Shown here: positions 5,624 to 15,092 of the stretch, piece by piece
Layout: the number at the start of each line of letters is the position of its first letter
Numbering within the stretch: the stretch's first letter is position 1
NCBI RefSeq assembly: GCF_030295425.1
Contig: NZ_AP027081.1
Coordinates: 2,234,965 to 2,298,964 of the forward strand
Reading direction: 5' to 3'
DNA length: 64,000 nucleotides
DNA from: Mesoterricola sediminis
GTDB taxonomy: Bacteria; Acidobacteriota; Holophagae; Holophagales; Holophagaceae
Position numbers and translations under genes: made by a program
Notes under the pieces: model-generated
What the model was told of the DNA's origin: nothing
Seen by the model: the letters and a program-made list of their open reading frames with translations, nothing else
Databases searched by the model: none

Positions 5624-6763
5624 GTGGAGGTGGCCCGGATCGAGCTGGCCGCCGTGGGCGATGTCCTGATGCACCAGGATGTGAAGGCCTCCGCGGCCCA
5701 GGCCCCCGGCGGCCTCGGCGACCTGTGGTCCGAGGTCACGCCCCGCTTCCGGCGGGCGGACATCGCCTTCGCCAACCTGGAAACCCCCGTGGCCCCCCGG
5801 ACGGGGCGCCCCGGCCGGCCCTTCCAGTTCAACGCCCCCGAGGACCTGCCGGCCGCCCTGCGGGCCTCCGGCATCGGCGTCGTCGCGGTGGCCAACAACC
5901 ACGCCTTCGACCAGGGGCCCCGCGGCCTGACCGAGACCCTGGCGCGCCTGGGGGCCGCCGGCCTCGTCGCGGTGGGGGCGGGCGCCACCCGGGCCGAAGC
6001 CGAGACACCCCGGTTCGTGGAGGCCAAGGGGCTCAAGGTGGCCTTCCTGGCCTTCACGGACATCTTCAACGTCGACCTGAACACCCGCGCCGACCGGCCC
6101 TGGGTCCGGGGGATCGATCCCCCGGCGGCGGCCGCCGCCGTCCGGGCCGCCAGGGCCCAGGCCGACGCCGTGGTGGTCAGCGTCCACTGGGGGGCCGAAT
6201 ACCTGCACGCCCCCCTGGAGCGCCAGAAGCGCCTCGCCAAGGCGCTGGCCGACGCCGGCGCCGACGTCATCCTGGGCCACCACCCCCACGTCCTCCAGCC
6301 CGTCGACGTGCTGGCCTCCGGGGACCGCCGCACCGTGGTGGCCTACAGCCTGGGCAACTTCATCTCCAACCAGGACCGCATGTACCGGGCGGACCTCTTC
6401 CCCGTGGCCGGCGGCGACAGCCGGGACGGCGCCCTCTTCAGCTGCCGCCTCGTCAAGCTCCGGTACCTGGACGGCACCGAGCGCGTCCAGGTGGAGGAGG
6501 CCCGCTGCGAGCCCCTGTGGACCCTCAACAACTGGCGGGAGGCCGCCGGGCGCAAGACCCCCCGCCTCATCCGGGTCGTCCCCGCCACCCAGCGCCTCCT
6601 GGAGGCCGAAGCGGAGGTGGAGCGCCTGCGCGCCGCCGTCCCGCCCGACCGAGCGGCCCTGCTCGCCCAGCAGGAGACCGTGCGCACCCTGATGCTCCGG
6701 CGCGCCCGCGCCGAGGCCATCCTGGGCGCCCCCTTCGTGACCCAGGGGGCGCCCAGGCCCTGA
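5624..6763 (+). CDS. CapA family metallophosphatase-like protein
   Basis: The PGA_cap/CapA signature segments are all present: AAVGDVLMHQD, ANLETPV, VANNHAFDQG, VSVHWGAEY, LGHHPHVLQPV and YSLGNFISNQ. The fold is that of calcineurin-like phosphoesterases, and relatives act in poly-gamma-glutamate or other polymer export. GTG at 5624 is the first standard start. However, the same frame continues upstream from about 5528 and encodes a typical signal peptide (RRLLAGLAGLGLLALGPGPA), so the real start probably lies further upstream at a non-standard codon, overlapping the radical SAM gene. Confidence 0.8.
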   Translation: MEVARIELAAVGDVLMHQDVKASAAQAPGGLGDLWSEVTPRFRRADIAFANLETPVAPRTGRPGRPFQFNAPEDLPAALRASGIGVVAVANNHAFDQGPRGLTETLARLGAAGLVAVGAGATRAEAETPRFVEAKGLKVAFLAFTDIFNVDLNTRADRPWVRGIDPPAAAAAVRAARAQADAVVVSVHWGAEYLHAPLERQKRLAKALADAGADVILGHHPHVLQPVDVLASGDRRTVVAYSLGNFISNQDRMYRADLFPVAGGDSRDGALFSCRLVKLRYLDGTERVQVEEARCEPLWTLNNWREAAGRKTPRLIRVVPATQRLLEAEAEVERLRAAVPPDRAALLAQQETVRTLMLRRARAEAILGAPFVTQGAPRP

Positions 6764-6768
6764 GGGCC

Positions 6769-7170
6769 CTACTGGACGATGACCGAACCGTCCGACGCCA
6801 CGGAGACCTTCGCGCCAACCAGGTGATCCACCCGCGGCTTCCTGGAGGAACCGGTCAGGTGGGCTTTCCCGCTCTTGGTGAGGATGGTGAACGGAACCGT
6901 CCCGCCTCCGAGGGGGCCCGTGCTGAACCGAAGTTTTACGGTTCCGGAAGCGGGGAGGGGATAGGTGCCGCCCGGGCTCAAGGTGGCCAAGAAGGTTCCC
7001 GCGCCATTCAGCACATCGACCTTGGGGGTGCCATGGCTGCTGTCCAGCAGGAGGTCCGCATCCTGCGCGTTCTTGCAATGGATGACGATGATGCCCGTGC
7101 CCGCCTGGGCGGTGGATGCGCCGGCGGCCGCCAGCACCAGGCTGGCGACCAGAAGGGTAGGAAATCGCAT
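6769..7170 (-). CDS. Small secreted hypothetical protein
   Basis: A 133-residue protein with a clear signal peptide (MRFPTLLVASLVLAAAGASTAQA) and a short beta-rich body (LSPGGTYPL, VKLRFSTG, KVSVASDGSVIVQ). A ribosome site (GGAAAGGA) precedes the start on the minus strand. No family recognised. It converges on the CapA-like gene with only 5 bp between the stops. Confidence 0.7.
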   Translation of the reverse strand: MRFPTLLVASLVLAAAGASTAQAGTGIIVIHCKNAQDADLLLDSSHGTPKVDVLNGAGTFLATLSPGGTYPLPASGTVKLRFSTGPLGGGTVPFTILTKSGKAHLTGSSRKPRVDHLVGAKVSVASDGSVIVQ

Positions 7171-7260
7171 GGGGGTCCTTTCCGGAAAGGGCCGTTCTGA
7201 CGGCCGACAGAAGATGGAATATAAATAATTTAATGTGATCCCCTGTCAAGGACGCCTCCC

Positions 7261-7303
7261 CCAAAAAGGCGAGGGGCCGGCGCCTTGGCGCCGGCCCCTC
7301 GCG
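7261..7303 (-). terminator. Intrinsic terminator of the sdh operon
   Basis: A perfect 16-bp inverted repeat (arms 7269-7284 and 7287-7302, loop of 2) lies 15 bp past the sdhB stop. Read on the minus strand, the GC hairpin is followed by C then TTTTT, the standard rho-independent layout. Confidence 0.9.
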
Positions 7304-7317
7304 TGGGACGGATCCGA

Positions 7318-8100
7318 TCAGAAGCCGCCGGCGGCGCCTTCGGGCCTGTAGGTGATGCTGGCCTTGATGAAATCGCGGTTCATGCGGGCGATGGTGTCCA
7401 GGGTGATGCCCTTGGGACAGGCGGCCTCGCACTCGCCGTGGTTGGTGCAGGTGCCGAAGCCCTCCTTGTCCATCTGGGCGACCATGGCCCGGGCGCGGTT
7501 CATGCGCTCCGGCTGGCCCTGGGGCAGCAGGGCCAGGTGGCTGATCTTGGCGGCGGTGAAGAGCATGGCGCTGGCGTTGGGGCAGGCAGCCACGCAGGCC
7601 CCGCAGCCGATGCAGGCGGCCGCGTCGAAGGCCAGGTCGGCCTTCTGCTTTTCCACGGGGGTGGCGTTGGCGTCGCAGGCGCAGCCGGTGGGGGCGCTGA
7701 TGAAGCCGCCGGCGGCGATGATGCGGTCCAGGGCCGACCGGTCCACCATCAGGTCCTTGAGGACGGGGAAGGCCTCGGCCCGGATGGGCTCGATGGTGAT
7801 CTCCTGCCCGTCCTCGAAGCTGCGCATGTGCAGCTGGCACGTGGTGGTGCGCTCCTTGGGCCCGTGGGGGCGGCCGTTGATGACCAGGTTGCAGGCCCCG
7901 CAGATGCCCTCGCGGCAGTCGTGGTCGATGACGATGGGGTCCTCGCCCTTCTTGATGAGGCCTTCATTCACCACGTCCAGCATTTCCAGGAAGGACATTT
8001 CGGTGGAGACGTTCGGGGCGTCGTAGGTGACGAAACGGCCCTGGGCCTGGCGGTTGGCCTGGCGCCAGACGTGCAGCTTCACGTTGATGTGCTTTTCCAT
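7318..8100 (-). CDS. sdhB: Succinate dehydrogenase / fumarate reductase iron-sulfur subunit
   Basis: A 260-residue subunit that wires electrons between SdhA flavin and membrane quinone. The 2Fe-2S loop is [13 protein letters not shown]; the 4Fe-4S and 3Fe-4S ligands are in [15 protein letters not shown] and [14 protein letters not shown]. The start at MEKHINVKL, 10 bp after sdhA, is preferred over longer frames because those overlap sdhA and add an unrelated Arg/Thr-rich tail. The CACDANATP insertion is typical of the type-B enzymes found in Bacteroidetes, Desulfobacterota and acidobacteria. It is the last gene of sdhCAB. Confidence 0.95.
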
Positions 8101-8110
8101 GGTCCGTTCC

Positions 8111-10024
<1,914 letters not shown>

Positions 10025-11002: not shown

Positions 11003-11569
11003 ATGCCATTCCGGTTTCCTGGGGCGATCCTCGCGGCTGGCGCCATCCTGCTCAGCCTCGCGTGCGGAGGCGGGGGGGGCACGGGCGGGCAAGTTCAGAC
11101 GGCCACCCTGGCCTATGTCAATCCGGCAGGAACGGGCTGGCGATGGGTGAAGGACGAGGCGCTCAGCACCCCCGATCGCCTCGTCCTCGCCCTGGTGCCG
11201 CCGGAGGGGGTCACCGGCCTGCGGGGAGTCGCCTTTTCCCTGGCGTCGGACCCCGCGGCGACCCGCTGGGTGGAAGTGCGTGCCGGGGGCCGGAGCCTGG
11301 TGGAGAATGGCACGTTCAACCTGGGCGGTGGTGTCCCCCTGTTCCGGTACGGGCAGGATCAAGGCGTGCTCCGCGCCGGGATCTTCCAGAAGGGCAGGGG
11401 CGACGCGACGATCCCCGATGGGGCGGCGGTCCGGGTGGCCCTCGCCGTCCAGGCGGGCGCCGGTCCAGGGACCTGGACCCTGGACCGGGCCTCCCTGAAG
11501 GTGCTGCCCCCCACCGGGGCGCGGCTCGTGGAAACCCCTGTGGAGGCCGGACGGATCACCGTCCAATGA
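11003..11569 (+). CDS. Lipoprotein with a cohesin-like domain
   Basis: A 188-residue protein. The ATG at 11003 follows TGAGGTG and gives a lipoprotein signal (AGAILLSLACGGGG) with Cys as the lipidation site. The remainder (about residues 30-180) is all-beta and follows the cohesin layout: GVTGLRGVAFSLASDP, a mid-domain VLRAGIFQKGRG strand, then VRVALAVQAGAGPGTWTL. Cohesins bind dockerins, and the next gene ends in a dockerin. The cohesin call rests on pattern similarity only. Gap to the protease gene is 55 bp, so one transcript is likely. Confidence 0.6.
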   Translation: MPFRFPGAILAAGAILLSLACGGGGGTGGQVQTATLAYVNPAGTGWRWVKDEALSTPDRLVLALVPPEGVTGLRGVAFSLASDPAATRWVEVRAGGRSLVENGTFNLGGGVPLFRYGQDQGVLRAGIFQKGRGDATIPDGAAVRVALAVQAGAGPGTWTLDRASLKVLPPTGARLVETPVEAGRITVQ

Positions 11570-11624
11570 GGCCGGAAGGCCGGCCTTCCCCCCTGCCCGC
11601 CGGAACGCTTGAGGATCCCATCCG

Positions 11625-14600
11625 ATGCTGAAAGCCCGTCTCACCCTGCTCCTGGCCGCCGGCCTGTCCCTGATGGCCGCGCCGCCGGCCCTGGGCCCTG
11701 GCCACACCCTGCATCCCGTTGCCCAGTGGACCGATGCCCTTGGGCAGAGCCACACCCGCTACGAGCACCGCCTGAACGGGCTCCGGGTCTGGGGTTCCTT
11801 CTTCATCGACCACCAGGGCCCCGGCGCCCGGATCGCCTCGAACCGCCTGGCGATGGGGCCGCTCCCCCCGGCGGTGGCCGCCCCCTTCGCCACGGGCGCC
11901 CTGGCGGCGGGGGAGCAGATCTACGTGCCCCGGGATCTGCCCGTGCCCGCAGGGGATGGCACGGACGCGGTCCTGATGGACAAGGGCCCGGCCGGCTACA
12001 TCGAGGCCGTGTACGTGCCCGCCGTGCCTGACAAGGACAACCTCGCCGGGGAGGCCTACGATTTCATCCTGGACGCCCAGACTGGCGAGGTCCTGTACCA
12101 GATCCCCATCCTGGAGGGGGCGGGCGCCGCCAAGGGGACGGGCAATACCTTGTACCAGGGGCAGGTCACCCTCGATGTCACCGATACCGGCGACGGGTTC
12201 CGGCTCGCGGACACCACCCGGCCCAGCCAGGGGCGATCCAATCAGATCAAGCAATTCTCCTATTCGACCAGCGCCCGCGAGGATCCTCCCCAGGCGCTCG
12301 CCGTTTGGGGCGATGGCAGGGCCGAGGCGCCGGGGACCGACAAGGACACCCCCACCGCCCAGACGATGCTGGCGGATATGGCGGCGGGCCTGCAGACGGC
12401 CTGGGACTATTGGAGGAGCGTCCATGGCCGGTGGGGCGTGGATGGGCTCGGGACTCCCATCAACGGTTATGCCCATGTCCCGACGAAAGTGGACAACGCC
12501 GCCTGGGGGCGCACCGCAAACGAACTGTACTTCGTGGTGGGCAATCCATCCAGGAACCGTCCCATGACGTTCCCGTCCGTCATCGGGCACGAACTGACGC
12601 ACGGCGTGATCGACTTCACCGCCAACCTGATCTATGAGGGGGAGAGCGGCGCCCTCAACGAGGGCACCGCGGATTTCTTCGCCGCGATGATGGGGGCCTG
12701 GCGGGCCAACGGCTCCCGCGCGGGGCGCATCGGGGATGCCAACACGACCTGGGCCTTGACCTCCTACCTCCAGGACGGCACGCCGGAGGTCATGCGCAAT
12801 TTCATCAAACCCTCCTTCGCCCCGAAACCCTCCCCGGACGCATGGAGTCCGGACCTGAAGAAACTGGATGTGCACCAGGGGTCGGGGCCCCTGAACCGGG
12901 CCTTGCACTTCCTGAGCCAGGGGGCCTCCAGCGACCCGCTCCAGGAGAACTTCTCGCCCCACCTGCCCGATGGGATGCGGGGGATCGGGAACGACGACGC
13001 CGCCAGGCTCTGGTACCGCGCCCTCACCACGTACCTGGGCCCCTCCAGCGGGTACGCCGAGGCGCGGGAGGCCGCCTTGAAGGCGGCCGCGGATCTCTGG
13101 GGAGCCGGTTCGGCCCAGGCGAAGGCGGCGGCCTCGGCCTTCGCGGCCATCCGGGTGGGGACCCCGGCCCCCGCGGAGCCCACGGGCTCGATCACCCTCG
13201 CGGCCACGGGGAGCCTCCAGGCGGGCCAGGTGAAACTGGAGGCGCAGGCCTCGGCCCCCCTCAAGCGGGTCCTCTACTACGTGGACGGCACGTACATGGG
13301 CGCCAGCACGGGGGAGCCCCACGCCCTCCTGCTGGATTCGGGCCCCGAACTGGCCAACGGCAGCCATGTCCTGGTGGCCCGGGGCTATTCGGAGGCCGGG
13401 CTGGAAGCCGTCTCCCAGGAGGCGGCCTTCTCCCTGGATGCGCCGGTCCAGCAGATCATGCTGAATCCCGGGTTCGAGGCGGGAGACGCTCACTGGGAAC
13501 TGACCGGCTGGAAGGCCGCCTTCGATCCCTCCGGCCGGAAGCCCCATGGCGGGTTCCGCGCCCTCCAGGTCGCGGACGACGAGGAGTCGCAGTTCGGCTT
13601 CGCTGCCCAGAGCGTGGCGCTGCCGGCCGAGGCCGCCTGGGCCGAACTGAGCTTCTGGATGCGCTACGAAGGCCCCGAGGACAGTGCGGGCGACGCGGTC
13701 TTCGGTGTTTCCGCGGGGACGAGCGACCCGGGCCTCGAAGAAATCATCGCTGAAATCCCCCCCTCCGGGGCCCGGGGCGGCTGGGTCCGGAAAACCCTGA
13801 ACCTGGCCAGCCTGGCGGGCCATACCGTCCGGGTGAACTTCGAGGGTCTGGTTCCCATGGGGTCCGGCGCCCGCCTCCTGGTGGATGATGTGCGCCTGGT
13901 CTGGTCCCGGGTGGAGCCGGGCCGCCTCTACGTCACGCCGGACCGCGTGGATGTCTGGGCCGGGGATGCGACGCCCATCCCCCTCCAGCCATACTTCAAC
14001 GGCCCGGTCATGCCGCAGATCACCTGGCGGGCCACCGGCGGAACCCTCACCCGCGAGGGCGTCTACACGCCGCCCACCCAGCCCGGAACCTACCGGATCT
14101 ACGCCGATCCGACCGACCCGAACGCGGACACGGAGGCGCCCGTATGGGAGGTCCCGGTGAACGTCAAGCCGCGGGTGGCCCTGGAGCCGGCGACCCTCGC
14201 CATGGACGCGGGAACCACGCACGTCTTCAGCCTCACGGCCGCGCCGGACGCGTCACCCGCCCTCACCCTCGCCGGAGGGGATCACCCCGGATTCGTGGCT
14301 ACCGCCCAGGCCGGCAAGGTGGCCTACACGGCGCCCAGCACCCCCGGGACCTATGTGCTGACCGCCCGGGACGCCACGTCCGGGGCCTCCGCCACCGCCA
14401 CCGTCCAGGTGCGCGCGGAGCCCATGTCGGTGGTGGTCGACCCCGCGGAGGCCGTGCTGGCCACGGGGGCCGGTTTCGGCTTCACCGCCACGGTGCGCGG
14501 GGACGGTCCGGACGGCGTGGTCTGGTCCCTGGCGGAGCGGGGCGGGGGCGCCGTGGGCACCACGGGCCTCTACGCCGCGCCCCTGGCCGCGGGCACCTAC

Positions 14601-15092
14601 CATGTCATCGCCACGAGCGTGGCCGATCCCGCCAAGCGCGGGGTGGCCACGGTGACCGTGGTGGACGGGGTCGCCGTGGATCCCCCCTCGGCCACCCTCC
14701 TGGTGGGCGGAACGTGTTCCTTCCGTGCCACCGTGCCCGGCCGAGGGAACGCGGACGTGGACTGGAAGGTGGAGGAAGGGTCGACCGGCGGGACGGTGGT
14801 GAACGGCCTCTACACGGCGCCGGCCACCCCCGGCACCTACCACGTGAAGGTCACGAGCGTCGCCCAGCCCTCGCTCAGCGCGGTGGTGGACGTGAAGGTG
14901 AAGACCGCGGACCTGGACGGGGACGGCACAACGGCCCTGGATTTCGAGGACATGGCCATCCTGGCCGACAGCTACGGCCAGACCGGCGCCGATCTCCCCG
15001 CGGATGTGAACGGAGACGGGCGGGTGGATGAACAGGACGAGGCCCAGGTCCTGGCCAAGGTCGGGGGCCAGGGGCCCGCGACGGCCCCCTGA
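11625..15092 (+). CDS. M4 (thermolysin-type) metalloprotease with Ig-like repeats and C-terminal dockerin
   Basis: A 1155-residue secreted protein: signal peptide (1-21), a pro-region, then an M4 catalytic domain with HELTH (His322, Glu323, His326), the third zinc ligand Glu346 in LNEGTADF at thermolysin spacing, and the transition-state His in VHQGSGPLN. Residues about 520-1090 carry a carbohydrate-binding-like jelly roll (LNPGFEAGDAHWELTGW) and several Ig-like beta domains with recurring 'GLYTAPATPGTYHV' units. The end has two Ca-binding loops (DLDGDGTTALDFED, DVNGDGRVDEQDE), a type-I dockerin. Probably a surface-held or secreted protease. Confidence 0.9.
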   Translation: MLKARLTLLLAAGLSLMAAPPALGPGHTLHPVAQWTDALGQSHTRYEHRLNGLRVWGSFFIDHQGPGARIASNRLAMGPLPPAVAAPFATGALAAGEQIYVPRDLPVPAGDGTDAVLMDKGPAGYIEAVYVPAVPDKDNLAGEAYDFILDAQTGEVLYQIPILEGAGAAKGTGNTLYQGQVTLDVTDTGDGFRLADTTRPSQGRSNQIKQFSYSTSAREDPPQALAVWGDGRAEAPGTDKDTPTAQTMLADMAAGLQTAWDYWRSVHGRWGVDGLGTPINGYAHVPTKVDNAAWGRTANELYFVVGNPSRNRPMTFPSVIGHELTHGVIDFTANLIYEGESGALNEGTADFFAAMMGAWRANGSRAGRIGDANTTWALTSYLQDGTPEVMRNFIKPSFAPKPSPDAWSPDLKKLDVHQGSGPLNRALHFLSQGASSDPLQENFSPHLPDGMRGIGNDDAARLWYRALTTYLGPSSGYAEAREAALKAAADLWGAGSAQAKAAASAFAAIRVGTPAPAEPTGSITLAATGSLQAGQVKLEAQASAPLKRVLYYVDGTYMGASTGEPHALLLDSGPELANGSHVLVARGYSEAGLEAVSQEAAFSLDAPVQQIMLNPGFEAGDAHWELTGWKAAFDPSGRKPHGGFRALQVADDEESQFGFAAQSVALPAEAAWAELSFWMRYEGPEDSAGDAVFGVSAGTSDPGLEEIIAEIPPSGARGGWVRKTLNLASLAGHTVRVNFEGLVPMGSGARLLVDDVRLVWSRVEPGRLYVTPDRVDVWAGDATPIPLQPYFNGPVMPQITWRATGGTLTREGVYTPPTQPGTYRIYADPTDPNADTEAPVWEVPVNVKPRVALEPATLAMDAGTTHVFSLTAAPDASPALTLAGGDHPGFVATAQAGKVAYTAPSTPGTYVLTARDATSGASATATVQVRAEPMSVVVDPAEAVLATGAGFGFTATVRGDGPDGVVWSLAERGGGAVGTTGLYAAPLAAGTYHVIATSVADPAKRGVATVTVVDGVAVDPPSATLLVGGTCSFRATVPGRGNADVDWKVEEGSTGGTVVNGLYTAPATPGTYHVKVTSVAQPSLSAVVDVKVKTADLDGDGTTALDFEDMAILADSYGQTGADLPADVNGDGRVDEQDEAQVLAKVGGQGPATAP

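Follow-up and report, generated by a model that had tools for sequence, protein, structure and literature searches.

A 64,000-nucleotide stretch of the Mesoterricola sediminis genome (the window; contig NZ_AP027081.1, positions 2,234,965 to 2,298,964) carries at positions 11,003 to 15,092 a small lipoprotein gene followed by the gene of a secreted M4 (thermolysin-type) metalloprotease, and the question raised by this locus is whether the lipoprotein holds the protease on the cell. The first-pass annotation had proposed that a cohesin-like, all-beta lipoprotein tethers, one to one and outside the polysaccharide-degrading context, a protease ending in two calcium-binding dockerin loops. Our analyses make it rather likely that the operon encodes an anchor and its cargo, i.e., a lipid-held cohesin that would catch the dockerin of the secreted enzyme and keep the enzyme on the cell.

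The lipoprotein had no match in Pfam at E ≤ 10, and the NCBIfam and PDB sequence searches likewise gave nothing useful; matches to catalase-peroxidases (E 0.011) and to 7p0x (E 0.57) were dismissed as chance. The alignment of the lipoprotein with its relatives also had no stretch sufficiently conserved to seed a search for related loci. The protein was judged by its fold and by bridging homologs. AlphaFold2 (AF2), supplied with an alignment of 116 relatives collected from the order, gave a model with a predicted local distance difference test (pLDDT) score of 89.4, reaching at least 91 in every ten-residue block from residue 31 onward, in which the domain was predicted to be all-beta from approximately residue 36. 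The top 27 rows of the Foldseek search against the PDB were cohesins only (best 4ums, E 3.9e-5). After re-alignment with VIA-align, rows 1 to 47 were all cohesins (Z 9.1–11.9; matched range residues 43–188), with 6kge_A at the top (Z 11.9, root-mean-square deviation 2.5 over 127 residues). The predicted fold is thus the cohesin jelly roll, on which the proposed tether had been made to depend.

A direct Pfam match to a cohesin was absent, but homology could be traced through intermediates. A profile of the mature domain of the family, built without the lipobox, matched lipoproteins from other Acidobacteriota (best E 2.8e-9; hhalign probability 94, E 1.3e-7), and three of these bridging proteins exceeded the cut-off of Pfam Cohesin PF00963 (E 4e-8 to 2e-6). 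By modeled fold and bridged homology, the lipoprotein can be assigned to the cohesin fold family PF00963, and its own family forms a branch of the cohesins that the Pfam profile misses.

The signal peptide of the lipoprotein ends in AILLSLA-C21 followed by GGGGG, and C21, the predicted lipidation site, matches a PROSITE-type lipobox pattern. The same pattern was matched by 93 of the 119 cohesin-family members of the order; it may be missing from some of the others partly because their start sites are uncertain. Eight loci (L091, L094, L098, L123–L126, and L135) encode a cohesin with no evident lipobox, in most of them at least 300 bp behind the dockerin gene, so the anchor of these cohesins may differ.

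The product of the second gene could be assigned to Peptidase M4 by its HExxH motif with a downstream Glu, its domains, and its propeptide. It comprises a complete M4 unit with FTP, Peptidase_M4, and M4_C domains, HELTH at residues 322–326, and NEGTAD downstream, and phmmer matched it to thermolysin (E 4e-28). The search for related loci with the protease as a query returned no relative. Its terminal residues, approximately 1085–1142 of 1155, hold two EF-type loops in the architecture of type I dockerins. The second loop, D1127-VNGDGRVDEQD, is canonical, and the first, D1096-LDGDGTTALDFED, is two residues longer than in the relatives, so calcium binding at the first loop is less certain. Pfam Dockerin_1 (PF00404) scored the tail at 13.3 bits versus a cut-off of 22.9 (E 0.095); many related tails exceed this cut-off. 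A dockerin model trained on 79 partner tails, with the pair studied here excluded, recognized the tail at 36.6 bits (independent E-value 2.7e-9), and a separate model devoid of any M. sediminis protein found it in a genome-wide search with E 2.4e-11. Profile homology thus identifies the C-terminus as a divergent type I dockerin, and the initial reading of an M4 protease with two dockerin loops, starting 55 bp behind the lipoprotein gene, proved correct down to the coordinates.

The distribution of the two modules was examined next. In the complete 4.52-Mb M. sediminis genome, the cohesin profile found exactly five full-length proteins (E ≤ 3e-29; next 0.013), encoded at five separate loci, one per locus. 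The dockerin profile also found exactly five (E ≤ 1.8e-5; next 0.38), and each of these five C-terminal dockerin genes has a single cohesin gene as its same-strand neighbor. The chance of such complete adjacency was estimated at approximately 1e-12, given that about 0.4% of the genome lies within 4 kb of a dockerin on the right strand. No dockerin match was obtained for the remaining three M4 genes of M. sediminis. A fifth Pfam dockerin match (2168083, + strand) was rejected, being a lone EF-like loop in a 1044-residue frame that the dockerin family model misses; by eye, this frame (L048, open reading frame 5630–8761) seems to comprise polysaccharide-deacetylase-like, caspase-like, and TPR-like parts.

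The survey was extended to 77 genomes of the order (Holophagaceae, Geothrix, and relatives), in which 114 of 120 cohesins and 110 of 130 dockerins were neighbors, in all cases on the same strand. In the nine genomes with one or two contigs, all 19 dockerins were paired. A count of 116/122, obtained with a dockerin model trained on the tails encoded by upstream genes, is partly circular for that reason; the safer figures are the complete-genome counts and those based on the Pfam dockerin only, which places a dockerin within 6 kb of 88 of the 119 cohesins and on the same strand every time. The adjacency of cohesins and dockerins, both in M. sediminis (5/5) and in the order (114/120), is not due to chance. 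Usually the dockerin gene comes first (103/116) and the cohesin gene follows 8–40 bp behind; in some pairs both genes share one frame with a single stop between them.

The paired modules were also found to diverge together. Distances between cohesins correlated with those between the neighboring dockerins (Mantel r 0.79; the maximum of 500 permutations was 0.15). Species ancestry explains part of this value, but not the signal among paralogs of the same genome, for which r was 0.67 as compared with 0.27 in within-genome shuffles (p 0.0005). The M. sediminis cohesins compared are themselves far apart (distances 0.58–0.76). Such co-divergence favors the view that each pair travels and evolves as a unit, as would be expected of one-to-one partners.

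Docking was modeled on the related L077 pair, in which the intervening TAG stop was read as Gly to give a dockerin–linker–cohesin chain in the natural order. The AF2 model of this tethered chain had a pLDDT of 90.4 and a predicted template modeling (pTM) score of 0.84, with a confident dockerin and cohesin and a poor linker of approximately 40 residues. By our own estimate, a pTM of about 0.84 is the ceiling for this chain if the linker alone is uncertain, and about 0.6 would be expected from an undocked dockerin. The model, judged by pTM and pLDDT and not by its interface, is consistent with docking.

The five M. sediminis partners are the M4 protease, a papain-like C1 protein (E 0.0012, below the cut-off, with a plausible QGLCNNCYAFS site), a C10 protease (E 1e-40), a sedolisin-type S53 protease (Pro-kumamolisin activation domain, E 6e-26), and a 540-residue propeller-like protein, hence four of the five are proteases; they have the dockerin in common and differ in the catalytic domain. 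No PF00963 match and no multi-cohesin scaffoldin was found in the genome, and none of the five partners matches a glycosidase family. For these two reasons a cellulosome was rejected for M. sediminis. Among approximately 100 partners across the order, there were 22 M4, 8 papain C1, and at least 4 C10 proteases, as well as M6, S8, and sedolisin types, and approximately 44 BNR/Sortilin-type propellers. The propeller partners that were inspected show similarity to a glycosylhydrolase model, with scores far short of its cut-off, and to a propeller in the PDB, and they may or may not act as glycosidases. The suggestion of a role outside the polysaccharide context is therefore secure only for the M. 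sediminis partners and the other peptidase partners.

Altogether, the following mechanism may be proposed. Once exported, the small protein would receive its lipid at Cys21 and sit in the outer membrane, with a flexible Gly-rich stalk carrying a single cohesin. The M4 protease would be secreted and mature through the loss of its propeptide, and the cognate cohesin would catch it via the C-terminal calcium-binding dockerin, so that the protease would stay on the producing cell. The same cassette would serve five secreted proteins, of which the majority are proteases, and each would have a dedicated cohesin. Of the tether first suggested, the fold and the pairing, which recurs across the genome and the order, have stood up; we infer the binding itself, its calcium dependence, the strict preference for the own partner, and the outward orientation of the lipoprotein on the surface rather than in the periplasm.

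The exclusive pairing was weighed against a shared surface hub, in which the five cohesins and five dockerins would be interchangeable, any lipoprotein would display any dockerin protein, and operon linkage would only balance dosage. All dockerins of the order do fall into one recognizable family, and within cellulosomes cohesin–dockerin pairs are often promiscuous inside a type. An interchangeable set sits poorly with the exact 5:5 pairing, with the co-divergence that persists among paralogs of one genome, and with the wide distances between the M. sediminis cohesins, and we regard it as unlikely. The lipoprotein might instead face the periplasm, as diderm lipoproteins do by default, and hold, fold, or inhibit the dockerin protein there; foldases and inhibitors also come as dedicated lipoproteins paired in operons with their enzymes. 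The partners belong to unrelated enzyme families that share only the dockerin, so an anchor fits better than an enzyme-specific foldase or inhibitor, and the Gly-rich stalk behind the Cys fits display off a membrane, though it does not specify the side. Periplasmic retention thus seems fairly improbable. That the two genes are mere neighbors, with EF-type loops that only stabilize the protease and a lipoprotein that is an unrelated protein of cohesin fold, could be argued from the low Pfam score of the dockerin. Such a coincidence would have to accommodate the same-strand adjacency throughout the order, top structural matches confined to cohesins, the co-divergence both overall and within genomes, and the docked model of a homologous pair; we give it very little credence.

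Several observations weigh against the anchor-and-cargo interpretation as well. The docking model concerns a relative, was artificially tethered, and was assessed by its overall scores. Some cohesin lipoproteins of the order have no evident lipobox. The M. sediminis pair itself is divergent, both in its longer first dockerin loop and in its Pfam score, and its gene order, with the cohesin first, is swapped relative to most pairs.

Table 1. Features of the lipoprotein–protease locus (positions in the window; aa, amino acids).
Feature	Position	Strand	Basis
Lipoprotein gene, 188 aa: signal peptide, lipid-accepting Cys21 (predicted), Gly-rich linker, one divergent cohesin domain	11003..11569	+	ATG 11003, stop 11569
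Predicted lipidated Cys21 and poly-Gly/flexible linker, aa 21–32	11063..11098	+	Pattern match; low pLDDT
Predicted cohesin domain, aa 33–188, jelly-roll beta sandwich	11099..11566	+	AF2 model, Foldseek, VIA-align, profile link to cohesins
Intergenic gap, 55 bp, within presumed two-gene operon	11570..11624	.	Open reading frame coordinates
Secreted M4 (thermolysin-type) metalloprotease gene, 1155 aa, multidomain, C-terminal dockerin	11625..15092	+	ATG 11625, stop 15092
FTP propeptide motif, aa 35–65	11727..11819	+	Pfam PF07504, E 4.5e-5
M4 catalytic and alpha-helical domains, aa 171–511, HELTH aa 322–326	12135..13157	+	PF01447, E 2.4e-19; PF02868, E 1.1e-28
Spacer region, aa 519–1084: Big_7-like, MAM/choice-of-anchor-J-like, and Big_2-like Ig domains	13179..14876	+	All below curated cut-offs
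C-terminal dockerin, two EF-type loops (D1096.., D1127..)	14877..15050	+	Pfam below cut-off; family models; motif reading

The pair is flanked by an sdh-type operon on one side and a membrane pyrophosphatase-like gene on the other, both on the opposite strand and both named from their translations. No convincing promoter or terminator turned up when the + strand near the pair was scanned, and no terminator-like site was found in the 55-bp gap.

Other arrangements were met in the survey. At five loci (L064, L056, L128, L102, and L088), two cohesin lipoproteins flank one M4-type partner in a cohesin–dockerin protein–cohesin tandem, and the dockerin is degenerate, e.g., DTDQDGEQDALDLGPIAFSWYL...DDGDIAAFADAMRATWW. 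Only two genomes of the order have cohesins over the Pfam cut-off (L182, G046:C403; L183, G042:C243); these share large frames with a dockerin match and thus point to a second, classic cohesin type. Two genomes assigned to other families of the phylum (L180 in G177; L181 in G312) hold strong members of the cohesin family directly preceded by a dockerin gene, and these may represent horizontal transfer or mis-binned contigs. Elsewhere in the Acidobacteriota, the protein at L202:2154-2960 (G347) resembles a secretin (type II secretion GspD-type) with a C-terminal cohesin (Pfam Secretin 5.7e-8, Cohesin 1.3e-13). L203 and L204 read alike; these proteins have about 720–850 residues, and many Pfam cohesin matches of the phylum occur once per genome in frames of the size of such secretin–cohesin proteins.

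Non-cellulosomal cohesins and dockerins have been reported in many bacteria and archaea, according to PMC9012536 (citing Peer et al. 2009) mostly with no assigned function, and adjacent cohesin and dockerin domains occur in syntrophic sulfate reducers (PMC10553843). The literature searched, whose coverage was incomplete, held no description of such pairs in Geothrix or Acidobacteriota; one Acidobacteria genome paper mentions dockerins, solely in a supplementary legend (PMC5900883). The modules of Archaeoglobus fulgidus are likewise described as single cohesins and dockerins outside cellulosomes, with no large multi-cohesin scaffoldins (PMC9012536), and the A. fulgidus cohesin 2xdh matches the lipoprotein model (VIA-align Z 9.7). 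M. sediminis differs in its systematic lipoprotein cassette, with one cohesin per dockerin protein, five times and mostly for proteases, and in a cohesin branch undetected by Pfam. The adhesion proteins of ANME archaea and their sulfate-reducing partners are also non-cellulosomal, with adjacent domains in the bacterial partner (PMC9012536, PMC10553843). These are described as putative adhesins or as scaffoldin-like proteins that carry as many as five cohesins, unlike the single-cohesin lipoproteins and enzymes of M. sediminis. In the glycosidases secreted by Clostridium perfringens (2jh2, 2vo8, 2w1n, 2jnk/2ozn), which show a close fold match and a comparable non-cellulosomal pairing of secreted enzymes, both modules reside on enzymes, whereas in M. 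sediminis a lipoprotein distinct from the enzyme bears the cohesin. OlpA and OlpC of Clostridium thermocellum, and ScaE and the autonomous cohesin ScaG of Ruminococcus flavefaciens, have one cohesin each, and several of them are cell-surface anchors. Their structures (3ul4, 4dh2, 2zf9, 4wkz) are among the fold matches of the lipoprotein; they belong to Gram-positive cellulosomes with other anchors, whereas the anchor in M. sediminis, a member of a diderm lineage, would be a lipid, and its genome yielded no scaffoldin. Non-cellulosomal cohesin–dockerin pairs are already known, and what appears new is the lipoprotein cassette with mostly protease cargos.

More tentatively, with the balance of our judgment slightly against it, the matched cassettes of Holophagaceae, and perhaps of many Acidobacteriota, might form a general orthogonal system of enzyme attachment, parallel to sortase and type IX sorting, in which the C-terminal dockerin would be the anchoring tag and the dedicated lipoprotein of the same operon its receptor. 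The pair studied here would be the simplest form of a cohesin–dockerin system, one anchor and one cargo per operon. Because this unit recurs with different cargos, its specificity, calcium control, and enzyme display become testable one pair at a time. The analysis assigns a tentative function to a lipoprotein family that escapes Pfam and provides a set of candidate orthogonal cohesin–dockerin pairs for enzyme display in diderm bacteria.

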